From: Salinibacter grassmerensis
Lineage (GTDB): Bacteria; Bacteroidota; Rhodothermia; Rhodothermales; Salinibacteraceae
Direction of reading: 5' to 3'
Assembly (NCBI RefSeq): GCF_947077765.1
Contig: NZ_CAMTTF010000005.1
Location: 119,501-183,500, forward strand
Length of the DNA stretch: 64,000 nucleotides
The notes under the pieces are model-generated. The model was not told where the DNA came from. It saw nothing but the letters and a program-made list of their open reading frames with translations, and searched no databases. This document shows positions 13,786 to 20,505 of the stretch, piece by piece (within the stretch, counting starts at the first letter, position 1; every line of letters starts with the position of its first letter). The position numbers and the translations under genes are program-made.

Positions 13786-14000
13786 TTGGGGGCTGTCTAC
13801 GGGGCGGAAAATCCATTTCTACATGTTTTCTTCACCTCTTTTGCCTGTAACCCTGCCCGGACAGGCTCGTCCACTGTCCGCAAATGACCCAGCGACCGGG
13901 AGCCCAGGACCGAGTTCGAGACGCAACCGGGTCCTGAGTGCCCGAACGAAATCGCTGCTTTCGTGCATTCGCGCCCTCTTCCACGATTTGACTGAATCCC

Positions 14001-14642
14001 ATGAATCGTTTTTTCCTCTCCCTTCTGCTTTCCTTCGCCGTCGCCGTTGGACTTCTGGTCGGGTGCGACTCGGCTGGCACCTCGATGGAGACCACCTCCG
14101 ACGATGGATCTACGACGTTGCAGATGAGCCTGACGGATGCTCCGGGTGACGTTACGAAAGCAAGCGTGATTATCGACAGCGTGTCCGTCATTGGTCGGGT
14201 CCCTGTCGAAGGCGACACGACGAACGAAGACTCGACCGACGTGAACCTATCGGTCCTGAGCGGGAAAAGCTTCGAGGCCGACCTGACCCAACTGGAGGGA
14301 GCAGTCGACACCCTTATGGGGAAGATCGACATCGAGCCAGGCACATACAGCCAGGTTCGTTTGGTGACGGCCAATCCCGACAGATTCGACGTACGGTACG
14401 AGACGACCCAGGACGACACGGCCCAGGCCAACCTCTTCATTCCCAGTGGTGAACAAACTGGCATCAAGGTCAACTTCGACTCGCCGCTGACCGTGGACAC
14501 GTCCATGGATACGGTGGACGTCACCCTGGACTTCGACGCCGGAGAATCCTTTGTTTCTCGAGGCCGCGCCGGACAGACGAGCGACTACAACTTTAAGCCG
14601 ACGGTCCAGGCAAGCGTCGATATCACCGGTGGTGAGAATTAG
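14001..14642 (+). CDS. DUF4382 domain lipoprotein
   Basis: The 213-residue product has a signal peptide with a lipobox (AVGLLVGC, Cys22), predicting a lipid-anchored envelope protein. The mature region begins with TTLQMSLTDAPGDVTKASVIIDSVSV, the typical DUF4382 opening (LTDAP...), continues as an all-beta domain, and is very acidic. DUF4382 proteins are of unknown function and are widespread in Bacteroidetes and halophiles. It ends 229 bases before the ECF sigma gene, so co-regulation with that cluster is possible but unproven. Confidence 0.82.
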   Translation: MNRFFLSLLLSFAVAVGLLVGCDSAGTSMETTSDDGSTTLQMSLTDAPGDVTKASVIIDSVSVIGRVPVEGDTTNEDSTDVNLSVLSGKSFEADLTQLEGAVDTLMGKIDIEPGTYSQVRLVTANPDRFDVRYETTQDDTAQANLFIPSGEQTGIKVNFDSPLTVDTSMDTVDVTLDFDAGESFVSRGRAGQTSDYNFKPTVQASVDITGGEN

Positions 14643-14871
14643 TTTTCGTCCTGGATGCCTGTCCCTTTGAAGGACCGACGCGCGGCCGGTCGCCGGAGTG
14701 GCGGCCGGCCCACGGTCCTGAAAGCATCAGGCGATACTCTATTTGGGCAATCGAGAGCGCAAAATGACGTGACGGACGAATGTGGCACACATTCTGCGCC
14801 AGGCCTCATGATCGGCAAGTGCGCCGAAAGAGAGCGCTTTCGTCTGTTGTTTCGCCCGACCCGCGTTTCGC

Positions 14872-15447
14872 ATGTCCCACGACGCCCCGGACGGCACGTA
14901 CGCCCGTCGCGTACAGGACGGGGACCGGTCGGCCTTCCAGGTTCTCGTCGAGCGGTACGAGGGCATGGTGTTCGATCTTGCGCACCAGTACGCCGATGGC
15001 CCCGAGGCCGCCGAAGACCTGGCCCAGGACGTGTTTCTCACGGCCTACCGCCGGATCGACGACCTCCAGGCCCCGGACCGGTTCGCGTCGTGGCTCTACG
15101 GCATTGCCCTCAACCGTGGGCGCGACTACGCCAAGAACGTCCGGCGGGATACCTACCCGTTCAGCCGCTCGGACCAGGAGGACTCCGCCATTCTGGACAA
15201 CGGAACGGCGGCGCAGGACGAGCAGCTCATCGCCGACGAGCTCGGGGATCAGTTGTGGGAGGCCCTGGACGAGCTGTCGCCGACCTACGCGACCCCCTTC
15301 CTACTCAAGTACCGGGACGGCCTGACGTACAAGGCCATGTCGAAACGGCTCGACGTGTCCGTAAGTGCACTGAAAGTGCGTGTGCACCGCGCTCGCAAAA
15401 AGCTCCGAACCTTGCTGGCCTCCTATCATGAAAAATCTCGATCCTGA
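14872..15447 (+). CDS. ECF-type RNA polymerase sigma factor
   Basis: This is a 191-residue extracytoplasmic-function sigma factor. Region 2 spans about residues 20-90 (FQVLVERYEGMVFDLAHQY, then AAEDLAQDVFLTAYRRI and FASWLYGIALNRGRDYAKN). Region 4 spans about residues 125-185 (ELSPTYATPFLLKYRDGLTYKAMSKRL followed by VSALKVRVHRARKKLRTLL). It would redirect RNA polymerase to a dedicated promoter set. Its last 20 bases overlap the next gene, which encodes a membrane protein with an anti-sigma-like N-terminus, so the two are almost certainly translationally coupled sigma and anti-sigma. Confidence 0.92.
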   Translation: MSHDAPDGTYARRVQDGDRSAFQVLVERYEGMVFDLAHQYADGPEAAEDLAQDVFLTAYRRIDDLQAPDRFASWLYGIALNRGRDYAKNVRRDTYPFSRSDQEDSAILDNGTAAQDEQLIADELGDQLWEALDELSPTYATPFLLKYRDGLTYKAMSKRLDVSVSALKVRVHRARKKLRTLLASYHEKSRS

Positions 15448-16138
15448 CACGATCGCCCGCCGGTTTATCGACGGGGACCTCTCCGACGAGGAGGTCCAGG
15501 CGGCCCTGCACCACATCGCCGACGACCCGGAGGCCCGCTCTCTGCTCCAGTTTGAGCTCCAAATGACGCAGAACCTGGCCGCCTCTCGGGCCCCACAGCC
15601 GGCCTCGGACTTCGCGACGCGCACGATGGAACAGCTGGACGAAGCGGAGGCCTCGCCTCGCCCGCTCGCCCATCGCCTTCGCGACTGGTGGGCGGCCATC
15701 AGACGCCCCCTCATCACCGTCCCCGTGCGCCCGGCCCACACGGTGGCCACCCTCGCCCTGGTCGTCGCGATCGGGTGGTTGGCCTGGCCGTCGGGGCCGT
15801 CCTCCGTTTCTCCGAATTCGCGAATGGGGGCGTCCGCGTCGGTCCAGCCCGCTGCGACCGCCTCTTCGCGGGCGGGGACCGTATTGACGCGGTTCGTTTA
15901 CACGAACGATACGGCCGACTCGGTGGCCGTGGCGGGCGACTTTAGCGACTGGAATCCCATTCCGCTCTCCCCACACATCGTGAACGGCGAGACGGTCTGG
16001 ACCGGCCTGGTGCCGGTGTCTCGCGGCGAACACGAGTACCAGTTCGTCATCAATGGCGAACGGTGGGTGACCGACCCGCTCGCCCCGGTGAAACAGGACG
16101 ACGGGTTCGGCGCGAAGAACGCGGTTCTCAAGCTTTAG
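15428..16138 (+). CDS. Predicted anti-sigma factor with C-terminal glycogen-binding (AMPK/CBM48-type) domain
   Basis: The 236-residue protein has three parts. A cytoplasmic N-terminus (1-95) includes DTIARRFIDGDLSDEEVQAAL, resembling anti-sigma N-domains but without zinc-ligand cysteines. A single transmembrane helix lies at about 104-120 (TVATLALVVAIGWLAW). A periplasmic C-terminal domain (about 153-236) resembles the AMPK beta / CBM48 carbohydrate-binding fold: DSVAVAGDFSDWNPIPL, EHEYQFVINGERWVTDPLAP, and a final DDGFGAKNAVLKL. The start at 15428 overlaps the sigma gene by 20 bases. Known anti-sigmas usually end in other sensor domains. A sugar- or polysaccharide-sensing role is my inference. 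Confidence 0.78.
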   Translation: MKNLDPDTIARRFIDGDLSDEEVQAALHHIADDPEARSLLQFELQMTQNLAASRAPQPASDFATRTMEQLDEAEASPRPLAHRLRDWWAAIRRPLITVPVRPAHTVATLALVVAIGWLAWPSGPSSVSPNSRMGASASVQPAATASSRAGTVLTRFVYTNDTADSVAVAGDFSDWNPIPLSPHIVNGETVWTGLVPVSRGEHEYQFVINGERWVTDPLAPVKQDDGFGAKNAVLKL

Positions 16139-16183
16139 CGTGCCATGCCGCCGCACGCTCTCTGATTTGACGTTGCTCATTCC

Positions 16184-17377
16184 ATGTGGCGGATTCTTCT
16201 CGGACTTTCGTGCCTCCTGGGGCTTCTGCCCCAGTCTGGCTCGGCCCAGCAGTGGACCGGCACCGCCACCTTCGGCCTGACCGGCGGCTACCAAACCAAT
16301 ACCTACCTCGATCCCGTGCTTCGCTCCTGGAACAACCGGTCCTCCACCCCGGGCCTCGCGGCCTTGACGCCGCGGGTCGGGGTTGCGCGTGAGGCACGCC
16401 GCACGCGCCTCGCCGCCACGGTTCGGACCCGACTGTATCCGCGCCGCGCCGGGATGCCCCAGTTCGTACGGGGCCATGCCCAGGCGCGGTACCGCCTGTC
16501 GCCGTCGTGGTCGGTAGGCGCCAGCGGCGGCGGGACACGCCTTCGCCTCGGCTCGTCGGAGGAGAGCTGGTGGGCGCTGCCCTCTGTGCAATGGACGCCC
16601 ACATCCAGCACGACCGTTACGGCGCGTGGCGGCCTCACCCAACGCTACGTCGATACGGACCAGGGGGCCACTGCTCGTCAGGACAGCAGGCTTGCCATGC
16701 TGAATGTGGCGTCCTGGCTTACCGATCGGTTTCGCACGGAAGGACGTGCGTACTGGAGCAATGGACGGACCCCCACCACGGGGGCCACCTTCGGGGGAAT
16801 GGGCGTGTCTGTGCGCGGGGTGTACTGGCCCACCGGCCAGTGGTCCGTGGAGGCCCAAGTGGGGGTCGAGCAGGTGCAGTACGAAACGAGGTCCCCCCGC
16901 TCCCGCTTCGGCCGGGGCGGCCTCAAAGTGGCGTGGCATCCCCGCACGGCGGTCACGGTCTTCGCCCAGGCCCGAGCATCAACGGCACGCCTCGTCAACG
17001 GGTCGAGTACAGACACGCACGTCGCGGCTGGGGTTCGTCTCCGGGCCCAGCGCGTACTGGGCGGAACCTCTACCTCGCCTCCACGCCGCCGCGTCTGTCG
17101 GGCGGTCGAAGATGGAGTGCAGGTCCAAATTCCCTACGACGGCCCCGGGACGCCTCACGTGACGGGTGACTTCAACGGATGGGCATTGCCCGGCACGTCC
17201 CTCACGCAGACCGACGATGGCACCTGGACGACGACCTTGTCGATGCCGTCCGGCGAATACGCGTACCGGATCCGCATCGTCGACGGCGACGAACGGAGGT
17301 GGCTCAGCCTTCCCTCCTACGCAGACACCGCCAGCGATGCATTCGGCGGCACGAACGGCGTATGCACAGTTCCCTAG
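16184..17377 (+). CDS. Outer-membrane beta-barrel-like protein with C-terminal glycogen-binding domain
   Basis: The 397-residue protein has a signal peptide (residues 1-21, ending SGSAQQ). About 280 residues of alternating short beta-strand sequence rich in Arg, Thr, Gly and aromatic residues follow (for example WSVGASGGGTRLRLG, WSVEAQVGVEQVQYET), as expected for an outer-membrane barrel. The last 94 residues (about 304-397) form a second AMPK/CBM48-like domain: PHVTGDFNGWALPG, TTTLSMPSGEYAYRIRIVDG, and DAFGGTNGVCTVP. The domain pairs with the one on the anti-sigma protein 45 bases upstream. Two Cys (in VCRAV and GVCTVP) flank the domain and could form a disulfide. Function is unknown; a surface sensor or receptor is a reasonable guess. 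Confidence 0.7.
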   Translation: MWRILLGLSCLLGLLPQSGSAQQWTGTATFGLTGGYQTNTYLDPVLRSWNNRSSTPGLAALTPRVGVAREARRTRLAATVRTRLYPRRAGMPQFVRGHAQARYRLSPSWSVGASGGGTRLRLGSSEESWWALPSVQWTPTSSTTVTARGGLTQRYVDTDQGATARQDSRLAMLNVASWLTDRFRTEGRAYWSNGRTPTTGATFGGMGVSVRGVYWPTGQWSVEAQVGVEQVQYETRSPRSRFGRGGLKVAWHPRTAVTVFAQARASTARLVNGSSTDTHVAAGVRLRAQRVLGGTSTSPPRRRVCRAVEDGVQVQIPYDGPGTPHVTGDFNGWALPGTSLTQTDDGTWTTTLSMPSGEYAYRIRIVDGDERRWLSLPSYADTASDAFGGTNGVCTVP

Positions 17378-17381
17378 CCCC

Positions 17382-18395
17382 ATGGCCCGCCTTCCCGGTC
17401 CCATACAGACACTCCGCGGCCTCTGGCCCGGGCTCGGCACCGCCCTCCTGGTCCTCCTGATCGGGGGTAGTGTCCCGCTCCAGGGCGCACTCGGCCAGCC
17501 GACCGATGTGCAGGCCCTCCTCGAACAGGGGGCCGCCGCCGGGGTGAATGTCGAACAAATGCGCACCGTGGCCGAGCGGGCCCGACAGGCCGGGTTGAGT
17601 GAGGGCGCGGCGGCGGCGTTGTTGGAGCCGGCCGTTGCCCTCGCAAAGCAAGACCTCCCGACGGATCCTCTGCTCTCCAAAACGCTCGAGGGCCTCGCCA
17701 AGCAGGTTCCCTCCTCCCGCATGCAGCCGGTGCTCCAGCAGTATCGCACCCGTACCGAGCAGGCCGGACAATTCGTCACCCAGTGGGCACGGCGCGACGA
17801 GGTGCGTCAGCTTCTCGGCACCGAGGATGCCCCCTCCGAGGCCAATCCTCAAACAAATGACCGGGCCTCGTTGGTCGCCGCAGTCGCGGAGGCCCGCCAG
17901 CAAGGGGTAGCCGCCGGGCACGTCGAGTCATTTTTGTCGGGGCTTCCGAACGGGGTGGAGCGCCGGCCTGTGTCGATGACCGAAGTGGCGGCGGCCGTCA
18001 ACGTACTCCCAGATCTTCCGGGCAACGGCGCATCGCCGGAAACGACCACGCAACTGGTCACCGCCGCCCTGGATGCCGGGTATAGCCCCGAATCGCTCCG
18101 CCAGCTTCCCTCCGCCCTGCGAAGTGCCCGCCAGAACAGCAATCGCCCCGTCGACGCCCTTGCGCAGGGCACTGCACAGGCGATCACGCGCGGGACCCCC
18201 GCCGCATCGGTTCTGCAGAGCCTTTTTCAGGGCGCCTTTCCCGGCGGCGGCCCCCCTTCCGGCGTCGGGAACGGCCCCCCCGGTAACGGCCCGCCTGGCA
18301 ACGGCCCCGGCACCGGCAAACCGCCCGAGACAGGCCCGCCCGACGACCCGCCCGGCGGAAATGGACCGCCCGGAAATTCAGGCGGAGGTCCGTAG
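17382..18395 (+). CDS. Secreted helical protein with Gly/Pro-rich collagen-like tail, unknown function
   Basis: I do not recognise a family for this 337-residue protein. It has an N-terminal hydrophobic signal segment (TALLVLLIGGSVPLQGALG). A long Ala-rich, mostly helical body follows, with repeating units of the form VQALLEQGAAAGVN, ALLEPAVALAKQ and VAAVAEARQQGVAAGHV that look like tandem helical hairpins. From about residue 284 comes a low-complexity tail of repeated GPPGNGPPGN-type units. It begins four bases after the stop of the barrel gene, so it belongs to the same operon as the sigma factor and the two glycogen-binding-domain proteins. The tail suggests an extended or surface-exposed role. 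The start at 17382 is chosen because it creates the signal peptide. Confidence 0.7.
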   Translation: MARLPGPIQTLRGLWPGLGTALLVLLIGGSVPLQGALGQPTDVQALLEQGAAAGVNVEQMRTVAERARQAGLSEGAAAALLEPAVALAKQDLPTDPLLSKTLEGLAKQVPSSRMQPVLQQYRTRTEQAGQFVTQWARRDEVRQLLGTEDAPSEANPQTNDRASLVAAVAEARQQGVAAGHVESFLSGLPNGVERRPVSMTEVAAAVNVLPDLPGNGASPETTTQLVTAALDAGYSPESLRQLPSALRSARQNSNRPVDALAQGTAQAITRGTPAASVLQSLFQGAFPGGGPPSGVGNGPPGNGPPGNGPGTGKPPETGPPDDPPGGNGPPGNSGGGP

Positions 18396-19839: not shown

Positions 19840-20505
19840 ATGGCGAAGGACAAGGCAGAAGTCGTCACCAAAAAGACCGCCTCGTCGGACAAGAATGCCT
19901 TCAACCAGCATGAGGCCCTTCAGGAGATGAGCGACGAGGACCTCATGTCCCAGTTTCAGGCTGGCACCGTGGAGGCCTTCAACATCCTCGTGGAACGGTA
20001 CTCCGACCGTTTGATGCAGTACCTCTACCGCTTCCTGGGTGACAAAAAGCGGTGCGAGGACCTGCTTCAGGAGACGTTCCTGCGCGTCCACCGGAATCGG
20101 CACTCCTACCGGCGCATTGCTAAGTTTTCGACGTGGCTCTACACCATTGCCGGAAACCTGGCGCGCTCCGAGTACCGGAAGCGGAAGCGGCGGCGCATGC
20201 AGTCGATCCAGTCCGTCAACCGCGACAACGAGGAGTACGAGATGGAGATCCCGGACGAGTCGTTCTCGCCGGACAAGCACGCGGAGAGCACCATTCAGGA
20301 CCACTACATTCAGGAGGCCATGAACGAGATCCCGCCGGCCTTCCGTGAGGTCGTGGTGCTGCGTGACATCCAGCAGCTCGCGTACGATGAGATTGCGGAG
20401 ATTACGGGCCTGCCGATGGGCACCGTCAAGAGCCGCATCAACCGTGGACGGACGAAGCTGCAGGCGCTGCTCCAAGACGTGTATCCGTTCCAGGAAGAGG
20501 AGTAG
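19840..20505 (+). CDS. ECF-type RNA polymerase sigma factor (SigW-like)
   Basis: This is a 221-residue sigma-70 family ECF factor. Region 2 includes FNILVERYSDRLMQYLYRFLGD, CEDLLQETFLRVHRNRHSY and FSTWLYTIAGNLARSEYRKRKRRR. Region 4 includes IPPAFREVVVLRDIQQLAYDEIAEI and LPMGTVKSRINRGRTKLQALL. A charged 30-residue N-terminal extension precedes region 2. No anti-sigma gene is adjacent; a terminator follows at 20567, so it is transcribed alone. The target regulon is unknown. Confidence 0.93.
   Translation: MAKDKAEVVTKKTASSDKNAFNQHEALQEMSDEDLMSQFQAGTVEAFNILVERYSDRLMQYLYRFLGDKKRCEDLLQETFLRVHRNRHSYRRIAKFSTWLYTIAGNLARSEYRKRKRRRMQSIQSVNRDNEEYEMEIPDESFSPDKHAESTIQDHYIQEAMNEIPPAFREVVVLRDIQQLAYDEIAEITGLPMGTVKSRINRGRTKLQALLQDVYPFQEEE

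Follow-up and report, generated by a model that had tools for sequence, protein, structure and literature searches.

A conserved sigma/anti-sigma gene module with CBM48-type domains on the anti-sigma factor and on an outer-membrane partner, from Salinibacter grassmerensis

Genes and domains of the locus

The window, a stretch of 64,000 nucleotides of Salinibacter grassmerensis DNA to whose positions all coordinates below refer, contains a module of four genes for an extracytoplasmic function (ECF) sigma factor (SIG), a membrane anti-sigma factor (ANTI), a predicted outer-membrane protein (OMP) and a secreted protein (TAIL). ANTI and OMP both end in a domain of the CBM48/AMPK type, the family of carbohydrate-binding modules (CBM) to which the glycogen-binding domain of the AMP-activated protein kinase (AMPK) belongs. 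All four genes start with ATG on the + strand; ANTI begins inside the end of SIG, with an overlap of 20 bases, OMP follows after a gap of 45 bases and TAIL after a further 4 (Table 1). These reading frames and spacings agree with an earlier note on this DNA, made from the sequence alone, which had described a four-gene cluster; the genes and their order stand, but the module is larger than was proposed, since a gene for a DUF4382 lipoprotein and a promoter element had been overlooked. We consider the DUF4382 gene a candidate regulon member and a candidate fifth part of the module.

SIG matches Sigma70_r2 (PF04542) and Sigma70_r4_2 (PF08281) above the Pfam cut-offs, with regions 2 and 4 only, and may already carry a published ECF group number. 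The family profile of the N-terminal part of ANTI aligns with the anti-sigma domain of RsiW (residues 9-77), with a modest E-value of 0.002. ANTI has a single hydrophobic stretch (residues 103-123), which is borderline over 19 residues (1.54 against a threshold of 1.6) and reaches 1.86 over 17; at the 19-residue threshold one span is found in 9/9 class-level ANTI orthologues. The description of an ECF sigma gene overlapping the gene of a single-span membrane protein is thus borne out.

The C-terminal domain of ANTI scores 36.2 bits against PF16561 (AMPK1_CBM), for which the cut-off is 26.8, and is also above the cut-off for CBM_48; these are the only Pfam families matched by the window ANTI at E ≤ 0.1, where neither FecR, STN nor the RsgI family appears. 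The ANTI family profile matches AMPK beta chains with an E-value of 3e-7. The C-terminus of the window OMP stays below the PF16561 cut-off (E 1.6e-4, 22.2 bits), but of the 34 OMPs aligned, the window's included, 33 match this family with E ≤ 0.01, the best member reaching E 8.5e-9, and the OMP-family profile matches AMPK beta-1 with E 1.7e-6. Sequence profiles therefore support both the AMPK/CBM48-type domain of ANTI and the second one on OMP, as the note had read them. Small stand-alone CBM48-type proteins, in frames of about 100-140 amino acids, also occur in the same genome (L043 5393-5860) and in L044 and L045 (L and G numbers denote loci and genomes), and such proteins, judged by frame length, are present in many genomes of the class.

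In AMPK beta-1, residues W100, K126, W133, L146 and T148 contact the sugar, and mutants lose glycogen binding, according to the excerpts available of PMC2642990. We counted the equivalent positions in 81 ANTI domains and 65 partner domains, in rows that include near relatives. The W100 equivalent is present in all of them (81/81 and 65/65) and that of W133 in 81/81 ANTI and 62/65 partner domains, while N150, which we take to be a further sugar contact, has its equivalent in 80/81 and 59/65, respectively. The L146 position is Phe in 81/81 ANTI domains. The AMPK beta glycogen-binding domain (1z0m; PMC2642990, in excerpts) is thus of the same domain family and shares the two sugar-stacking tryptophans, whereas it belongs to a cytosolic kinase subunit and differs from ANTI at the positions of K126, L146 and T148. 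With this face partly kept in the sequences, binding of sugar by the CBM48 domains is plausible.

The model of OMP, with a predicted local distance difference test score (pLDDT) of 86.2 and a predicted template modelling score (pTM) of 0.68, has 14 barrel strands, which are followed from residue 305 by a beta domain. In fold searches with residues 19-292 (Foldseek, VIA-align), the barrel resembles that of the cyclodextrin porin CymA (Z 21.9, root-mean-square deviation 3.2 over 252 residues, 7% identity) and that of OmpG (Z 19.9). The 14-strand barrel is common to OMP and these porins, which have no C-terminal CBM in the comparison, and the likeness of the models does not imply the function of a sugar channel. 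No receptor or plug family is among the nine Pfam families matched by the 34 OMP members. As a general rule such barrels have their N-terminus in the periplasm and, since the number of strands is even, the C-terminal CBM of OMP would lie there as well, in the compartment of the ANTI CBM. This periplasmic location, taken from the model, is most likely, so that the cell-surface signalling system of the earlier note stands as a signalling module, but a position at the cell surface is not implied.

TAIL is modelled over 273 residues as 13 helices (pLDDT 91.8, pTM 0.87), which, with its Gly/Pro/Asn tail, agrees with the secreted helical protein noted 4 bases after the OMP gene. The model has no match in the PDB at E ≤ 0.001 (Foldseek), and its best VIA-align Z, 8.1 with a designed repeat protein, is within the range expected of helical models without relatives. 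A Pfam identity was rejected, because the matches are scattered, with at most 4/57 members for any family. Second TAIL copies lie 3' of the module in L094 (8175-9182) and L104 (4629-5612), the genomes G323 and G327 have two copies each, and in a Sandaracinaceae contig (L136) a TAIL-like gene stands before SIG and not after the CBM protein.

Table 1. Features of the module and of its upstream region
Feature	Position	Strand	Basis or remark
ECF-type promoter element GTAAC-N16-CGTC, operon head	13847..13871	+	Relatives have it before DUF4382 or SIG
DUF4382 (PF14321) lipoprotein	14001..14642	+	Pfam E 1.5e-24; lipobox LVGC by eye; promoter upstream
sigma-54-like element TGGCACACATTCTGCG (GG-N10-GC), between DUF4382 and SIG	14783..14798	+	9/11 family loci, one weak
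SIG, ECF sigma factor, 191 amino acids	14872..15447	+	Pfam; placed by tree among module sigmas from other phyla
ANTI, membrane anti-sigma factor, 236 amino acids	15428..16138	+	Family profile against RsiW; alignment
CBM48/AMPK-type domain of ANTI, residues 154-232, predicted periplasmic	15887..16123	+	PF16561 E 7.2e-9
OMP, with signal peptide, beta-barrel of 14 strands in the model (residues 24-292) and CBM48-type domain at the C-terminus	16184..17377	+	
CBM48/AMPK-type domain of OMP, residues 305-397	17096..17374	+	Pfam below cut-off; family profile
TAIL, secreted all-helical protein, Gly/Pro/Asn-rich tail about 18240-18392	17382..18395	+	

Conservation of the gene order

The module was searched for in a near set of 31 genomes close to that of the window, its own genome counted, and in a class set of 117 Rhodothermia genomes, each at least 90% complete. 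In the near set, the window's own genome has full-length ANTI, as do 8 of its 12 congeners and 2 of its 6 family-level relatives, and the order SIG-ANTI-OMP-TAIL is kept in 10/10 of these ANTI-bearing relatives. The same order is found in 9/9 ANTI loci from other families of the class (OMP of L060 and L061 was read partly by eye). Within the class set, the genomes with full-length ANTI (the top 25 among the matches listed) and those with strong TAIL matches are the same 25, none having one without the other; a TAIL tally of 27 genomes includes two weak partial matches (G037, G179), which were left out of the 25. The remaining 92/117 genomes are without the module, and its distribution is therefore patchy.

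More widely, 19 ANTI sequences were scanned against named genomes, and the 80 loci described here are the best 80 of 398 confirmed, picked by ANTI resemblance. By phylum group as named in the NCBI records, they comprise 37 loci of Rhodothermia type (NCBI Rhodothermota and Balneolota), 24 of Gemmatimonadota, 10 of Nitrospirota, 6 of Deltaproteobacteria/Myxococcota, and one each of Krumholzibacteriota, Latescibacterota and another bacterium. These loci and those of the nearer genomes are not independent, because several sequences are identical (e.g. L073-L077, L080). The automatic reading places all four genes in order in 58/80. Sixty loci are complete within their contigs (26 Rhodothermia, 19 Gemmatimonadota, 8 Nitrospirota, 5 Myxococcota, 1 Krumholzibacteriota, 1 other), and in these SIG was found in 57, TAIL in 59, a second CBM gene in 55, all four kinds of gene in 53 and the window's order in 50. 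Counts are kept as the automatic rule gave them; it missed SIG in L108, L116 and L145, and by eye SIG is present in L116, outside the rule's reach, and out of order in L145. In the latter, a Gemmatimonadota contig, the order ANTI, CBM protein, SIG, TAIL represents a rearrangement or an assembly error. Two of the checks suggested by the earlier note, namely the four-gene order in relatives and ECF sigma genes beside CBM48 membrane proteins in other genomes, thus both gave the pattern it anticipated, and because the order is kept over large distances it reflects more than chance.

A tree of 40 module sigma factors from seven NCBI phyla and 20 other ECF sigma factors from three of the same genomes groups 19 of the 20 others together, outside the module sigmas. 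It requires two label changes, compared with a mean of 17.0 after shuffling (0/500 shuffles were as low; the bootstrap is not settled), and there are two because L259, on a very long end branch (4.12), is placed within the module sigmas. Alignments of TAIL built apart for Rhodothermia, Gemmatimonadota and Nitrospirota match each other with E-values of 8e-21, 5e-21 and 2e-23. Judged by their sequences, the sigma factor and TAIL are old companions and not recent neighbours.

The CBM-bearing partner of ANTI differs between groups. The barrel parts of Rhodothermia and Gemmatimonadota have no detectable relation, and their homology was rejected (hhalign E 0.13). The second CBM protein of Nitrospirota is a short one, with a lipobox-like cysteine seen by eye in 8/9 sequences (L143 is without), and its gene follows ANTI in six loci and precedes SIG in three. 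A separate barrel-like gene lies 3' of TAIL in L125 and L135, with PF10082 above the cut-off in the former and below it in the latter. The exchange of the anchor around a CBM that is kept points to the latter as the working part. The CBM48 module is present in six or seven bacterial phyla, as named in the records.

A second ECF sigma gene of the window (19843-20505), which lies beyond an isoaspartyl peptidase gene, is 94-99.5% identical across seven loci of the genus; the intervening peptidase gene is 63-90% and TAIL 49-84% identical, and this second sigma factor is thus unusually constrained.

Promoter element and DUF4382 genes

The GTAAC-N16-CGTC element at the operon head is the sole exact copy in the window, both strands of which were scanned. 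The element also stands before SIG in 8/8 Balneolaceae loci shown. We then counted it in the 250 bases before SIG in 72 named loci from the best 80 of 398, where the exact form is present in 31, corresponding to 27/34 Rhodothermia, 3/9 Nitrospirota and 1/1 Krumholzibacteriota loci, and absent from Gemmatimonadota (0/21), Myxococcota (0/5), Latescibacterota (0/1) and the other bacterium (0/1). A looser form, GTRAC-N16/17-CGTC, adds 14 loci, namely 2 Rhodothermia, 9 Gemmatimonadota, 2 Myxococcota and 1 other, and neither form is found on the opposite strand (0/72).

The same element accompanies DUF4382 genes. In 9 of 10 Balneolaceae genomes two motif sites flank the module, 3.6-4.0 kb apart, and the gene after the second site encodes a DUF4382 lipoprotein in 7/7 loci read. 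In the genus of the window, the DUF4382 gene before SIG has its own copy of the element, which is exact in six of seven loci and has one mismatch in L040 (by eye), and where no DUF4382 gene precedes SIG (L038, L039, L041) the element stands directly before SIG. DUF4382 genes before SIG in L124 and L146 have a GTGAC-N17-CGTC form upstream, a reading made without a control. A search of 14 genomes gave 27 DUF4382 genes, of which 16 have the exact element at most 400 bases upstream on the coding strand, as measured from the start of the domain match and not of the gene, while on the other strand it is found in 0/27. Six of the 16 are remote from the module (L216, L223, L227, L230, L231, L233, with L230 about 6 kb from it), and the association is therefore not mere synteny. 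In G001, the only DUF4382 genes, L216 and L227, both have the element and none stands beside SIG. Of the four module-less genomes in this search, three (G006, G010, G020) have no DUF4382 gene and G015 has one, which is element-free. We infer that the module sigma factor reads GTAAC-N16-CGTC.

As for the DUF4382 proteins, a Haloferax volcanii member, the lipoprotein HVO_1030, is listed as a glycoprotein in the available part of PMC8241124. In Fodinibius-type genomes (L053-L055), three genes with pilin-like N-terminal hydrophobic segments, seen by eye, follow the DUF4382 gene; the one of L054, the only one checked, has no Pfam match.

Within the family of the window a further element, TGGCAY-N5-YTGC, resembles a sigma-54 promoter; its match is weak in L037 (shuffle p 0.09), and L036 and L041 are without it. 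The genome has an rpoN-type gene. None of the loci outside the family has this element at shuffle p ≤ 0.05, so that it is local, and sigma-54 was rejected as a general regulator of the module. The element may add a second input in this family only, in a role that is uncertain.

Among the neighbouring genes of the seven class loci read, one of the alpha-amylase family is close to the module in L056 and L059 but is missing from the remaining five, and L053 has instead genes for a nucleotidyl transferase and an epimerase. Outside the class, seven flanking genes include no carbohydrate enzyme according to Pfam. A constant carbohydrate-enzyme neighbour was consequently rejected. In L056 a family 2 glycosyltransferase is also near the module.

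Proposed mechanism and relation to known systems

With evenly divided confidence, we propose that the module is an autoregulated ECF sigma/anti-sigma switch, which reads the outer membrane and the periplasm through its two CBM48 domains. In the absence of a signal, ANTI would keep the sigma factor at the inner membrane, and its periplasmic CBM48 domain would dock on its CBM48 counterpart at the outer membrane, either directly or via a bridging alpha-glucan-like ligand; glucan could act as the bridge or as a competitor, and TAIL would be a further member of the docking complex. A change in the ligand or in the state of the outer membrane would shift the docking and lead to proteolysis of ANTI, and the freed sigma factor would transcribe its own operon and, as output, the DUF4382 lipoproteins. 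Release by sugar or by contact, as in the earlier note, is what we infer. Tentatively, and with some doubt, we further suggest that ANTI and the exchangeable outer-membrane anchor may form an alpha-glucan-sensing domain pair with a dedicated helical partner, which has no relative among the solved structures searched, and a very small regulon, with DUF4382 output, and that this would be an undescribed transenvelope class.

Several observations weigh against this proposal. The K126 equivalent is present in 0/81 ANTI domains, where the position is Met in 70 and Gln in 6; among the partner domains (n = 65) it is Lys in 26 and Arg in 9. Five of the 60 uncut loci have no second CBM gene (L108, L121, L126, L129, L130), and pairing of CBMs is therefore not universal. 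Neither form of the promoter element precedes SIG in 27/72 loci, partly because the DUF4382 gene stands between, and 11/27 DUF4382 genes are without it. In the window itself SIG is 1.0 kb 3' of the motif, and the sigma-54-like element is nearer. Finally, the stricter motif has 41 sites in ten Balneolaceae genomes compared with 88 for a reversed-pattern control, and a count in four genomes gave 26 against 58. With counts below the control, the numbers are uninformative and the positions alone are informative; a large regulon was rejected on the same low counts.

The loss of the K126 equivalent from every ANTI domain would be expected if the CBM48 domains served purely for protein-protein docking, in which case the switch would report the presence and correct assembly of the outer-membrane partner. 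The lack of a constant carbohydrate-enzyme neighbour, with none among the seven Pfam-checked flanking genes outside the class, points the same way, as does the reported binding of the same-fold STN domains of FoxR and FoxA to each other. We nevertheless consider this explanation rather unlikely, given that the W100 and W133 equivalents are invariant in ANTI, that two of seven class loci have a gene of the alpha-amylase family close to the module, and that the nearest solved folds of the barrel are the sugar channels CymA and OmpG, although a fold shows no function.

An envelope-stress switch similar to sigma-E/RseA, with TAIL as an RseB-like periplasmic regulator and the CBM as a stabilising shield over the protease site, is improbable. 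The N-terminus of ANTI does resemble RsiW, TAIL is the most constant partner (59/60 uncut loci) and a DUF4382 lipoprotein regulon would suit envelope repair, but no sequence or fold match between TAIL and RseB is among the matches listed, an absence that does not exclude a relation, and a mere shield leaves the recurring second CBM gene (55/60) unexplained. That the genes are chance neighbours or part of metK synteny with no common function, as the metK and isoaspartyl peptidase neighbours, also largely conserved within the family, might suggest, is hardly credible, since the order is kept in other families and phyla amid other neighbours, the promoter is shared and the co-occurrence of ANTI and TAIL is perfect.

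Among known systems, which we compare from partial texts of the papers cited, the closest in logic are FecA/FecR/FecI and FoxA/FoxR/FoxI (PMC11637429), with which the switch shares an ECF sigma factor, a single-span anti-sigma factor and a co-regulated barrel. In FoxR/FoxA, the STN domain of the anti-sigma factor and that of the receptor interact in the periplasm, and this contact shields the former protein from proteolysis (PMC11637429). The anti-sigma C-terminus and the periplasmic portion of the barrel protein carry domains of one fold, as in the module, whose mechanism may by analogy follow the same logic with CBM48 in place of STN. In contrast to TonB-dependent signalling, the module has a CBM48 pair and not STN, a modelled barrel of 14 strands with no plug, the domain placed C-terminally to the barrel, no FecR domain, and the additional TAIL and DUF4382 proteins. 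Membership of TonB-type cell-surface signalling was rejected, because barrel and domains differ.

A carbohydrate-binding module on an anti-sigma factor can act as a sensor, as reported for RsgI (PMC12203970), and the SigI/RsgI systems of Clostridium thermocellum resemble ANTI in having a polysaccharide-sensing CBM outside the membrane. They differ in being Gram-positive, in their SigI-type sigma factor and autocleaving periplasmic domain, and in their sensors (CBM3, CBM42, PA14 and others), and have, in the text available, neither an outer-membrane partner nor TAIL. Since defining features of both TonB signalling and SigI/RsgI are missing, the module at most works like them. Glycan-linked ECF/anti-sigma control with outer-membrane transporters is a further likeness, but its SusC/D transporters are TonB-dependent, and the accessible accounts of SusC/D-type systems do not mention CBM48 on an anti-sigma factor. 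ECF52 SCO4117 of Streptomyces coelicolor (PMC8999054) likewise links ECF signalling to a carbohydrate-binding domain that lies beyond the membrane; there the domain is fused to the sigma factor itself, with no separate anti-sigma factor or barrel in the part available. RsiW (5wuq, compared by sequence profile only) shares the cytoplasmic anti-sigma domain with ANTI and has no CBM and no outer membrane.

A CBM48 anti-sigma factor is not described in the open-access literature searched, a limited coverage with subscription papers mostly outside it. The terms carbohydrate, CBM and glycogen do not occur in a study of class I anti-sigma domains (PMC7406223) or in an ECF review (PMC8103513), and the available part of a review of non-canonical ECFs (PMC8999054) does not mention glycogen and names a single carbohydrate-binding domain, which belongs to ECF52. 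The earlier note knew of no described system with this set of genes. This is correct for the combination, while a carbohydrate-binding anti-sigma factor (RsgI) and the pairing of same-fold domains (FoxR/FoxA) are both known; what appears to be new is the combination of paired CBM48 domains on an anti-sigma factor and its outer-membrane partner.

Since its sigma and anti-sigma factors, its promoter and target gene and a candidate for the sensor domain are defined, this conserved system of poorly studied phyla can be tested step by step. If the proposal is true, the logic of cell-surface signalling, in which domains of the same fold meet in the periplasm, would not be bound to TonB receptors and STN. 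It would also place the glycogen-sensor fold of AMPK in bacterial signalling, with CBM48 as a sensor between two membranes in a logic comparable to that of AMPK, and would give the DUF4382 proteins and the TAIL family a first regulatory context.

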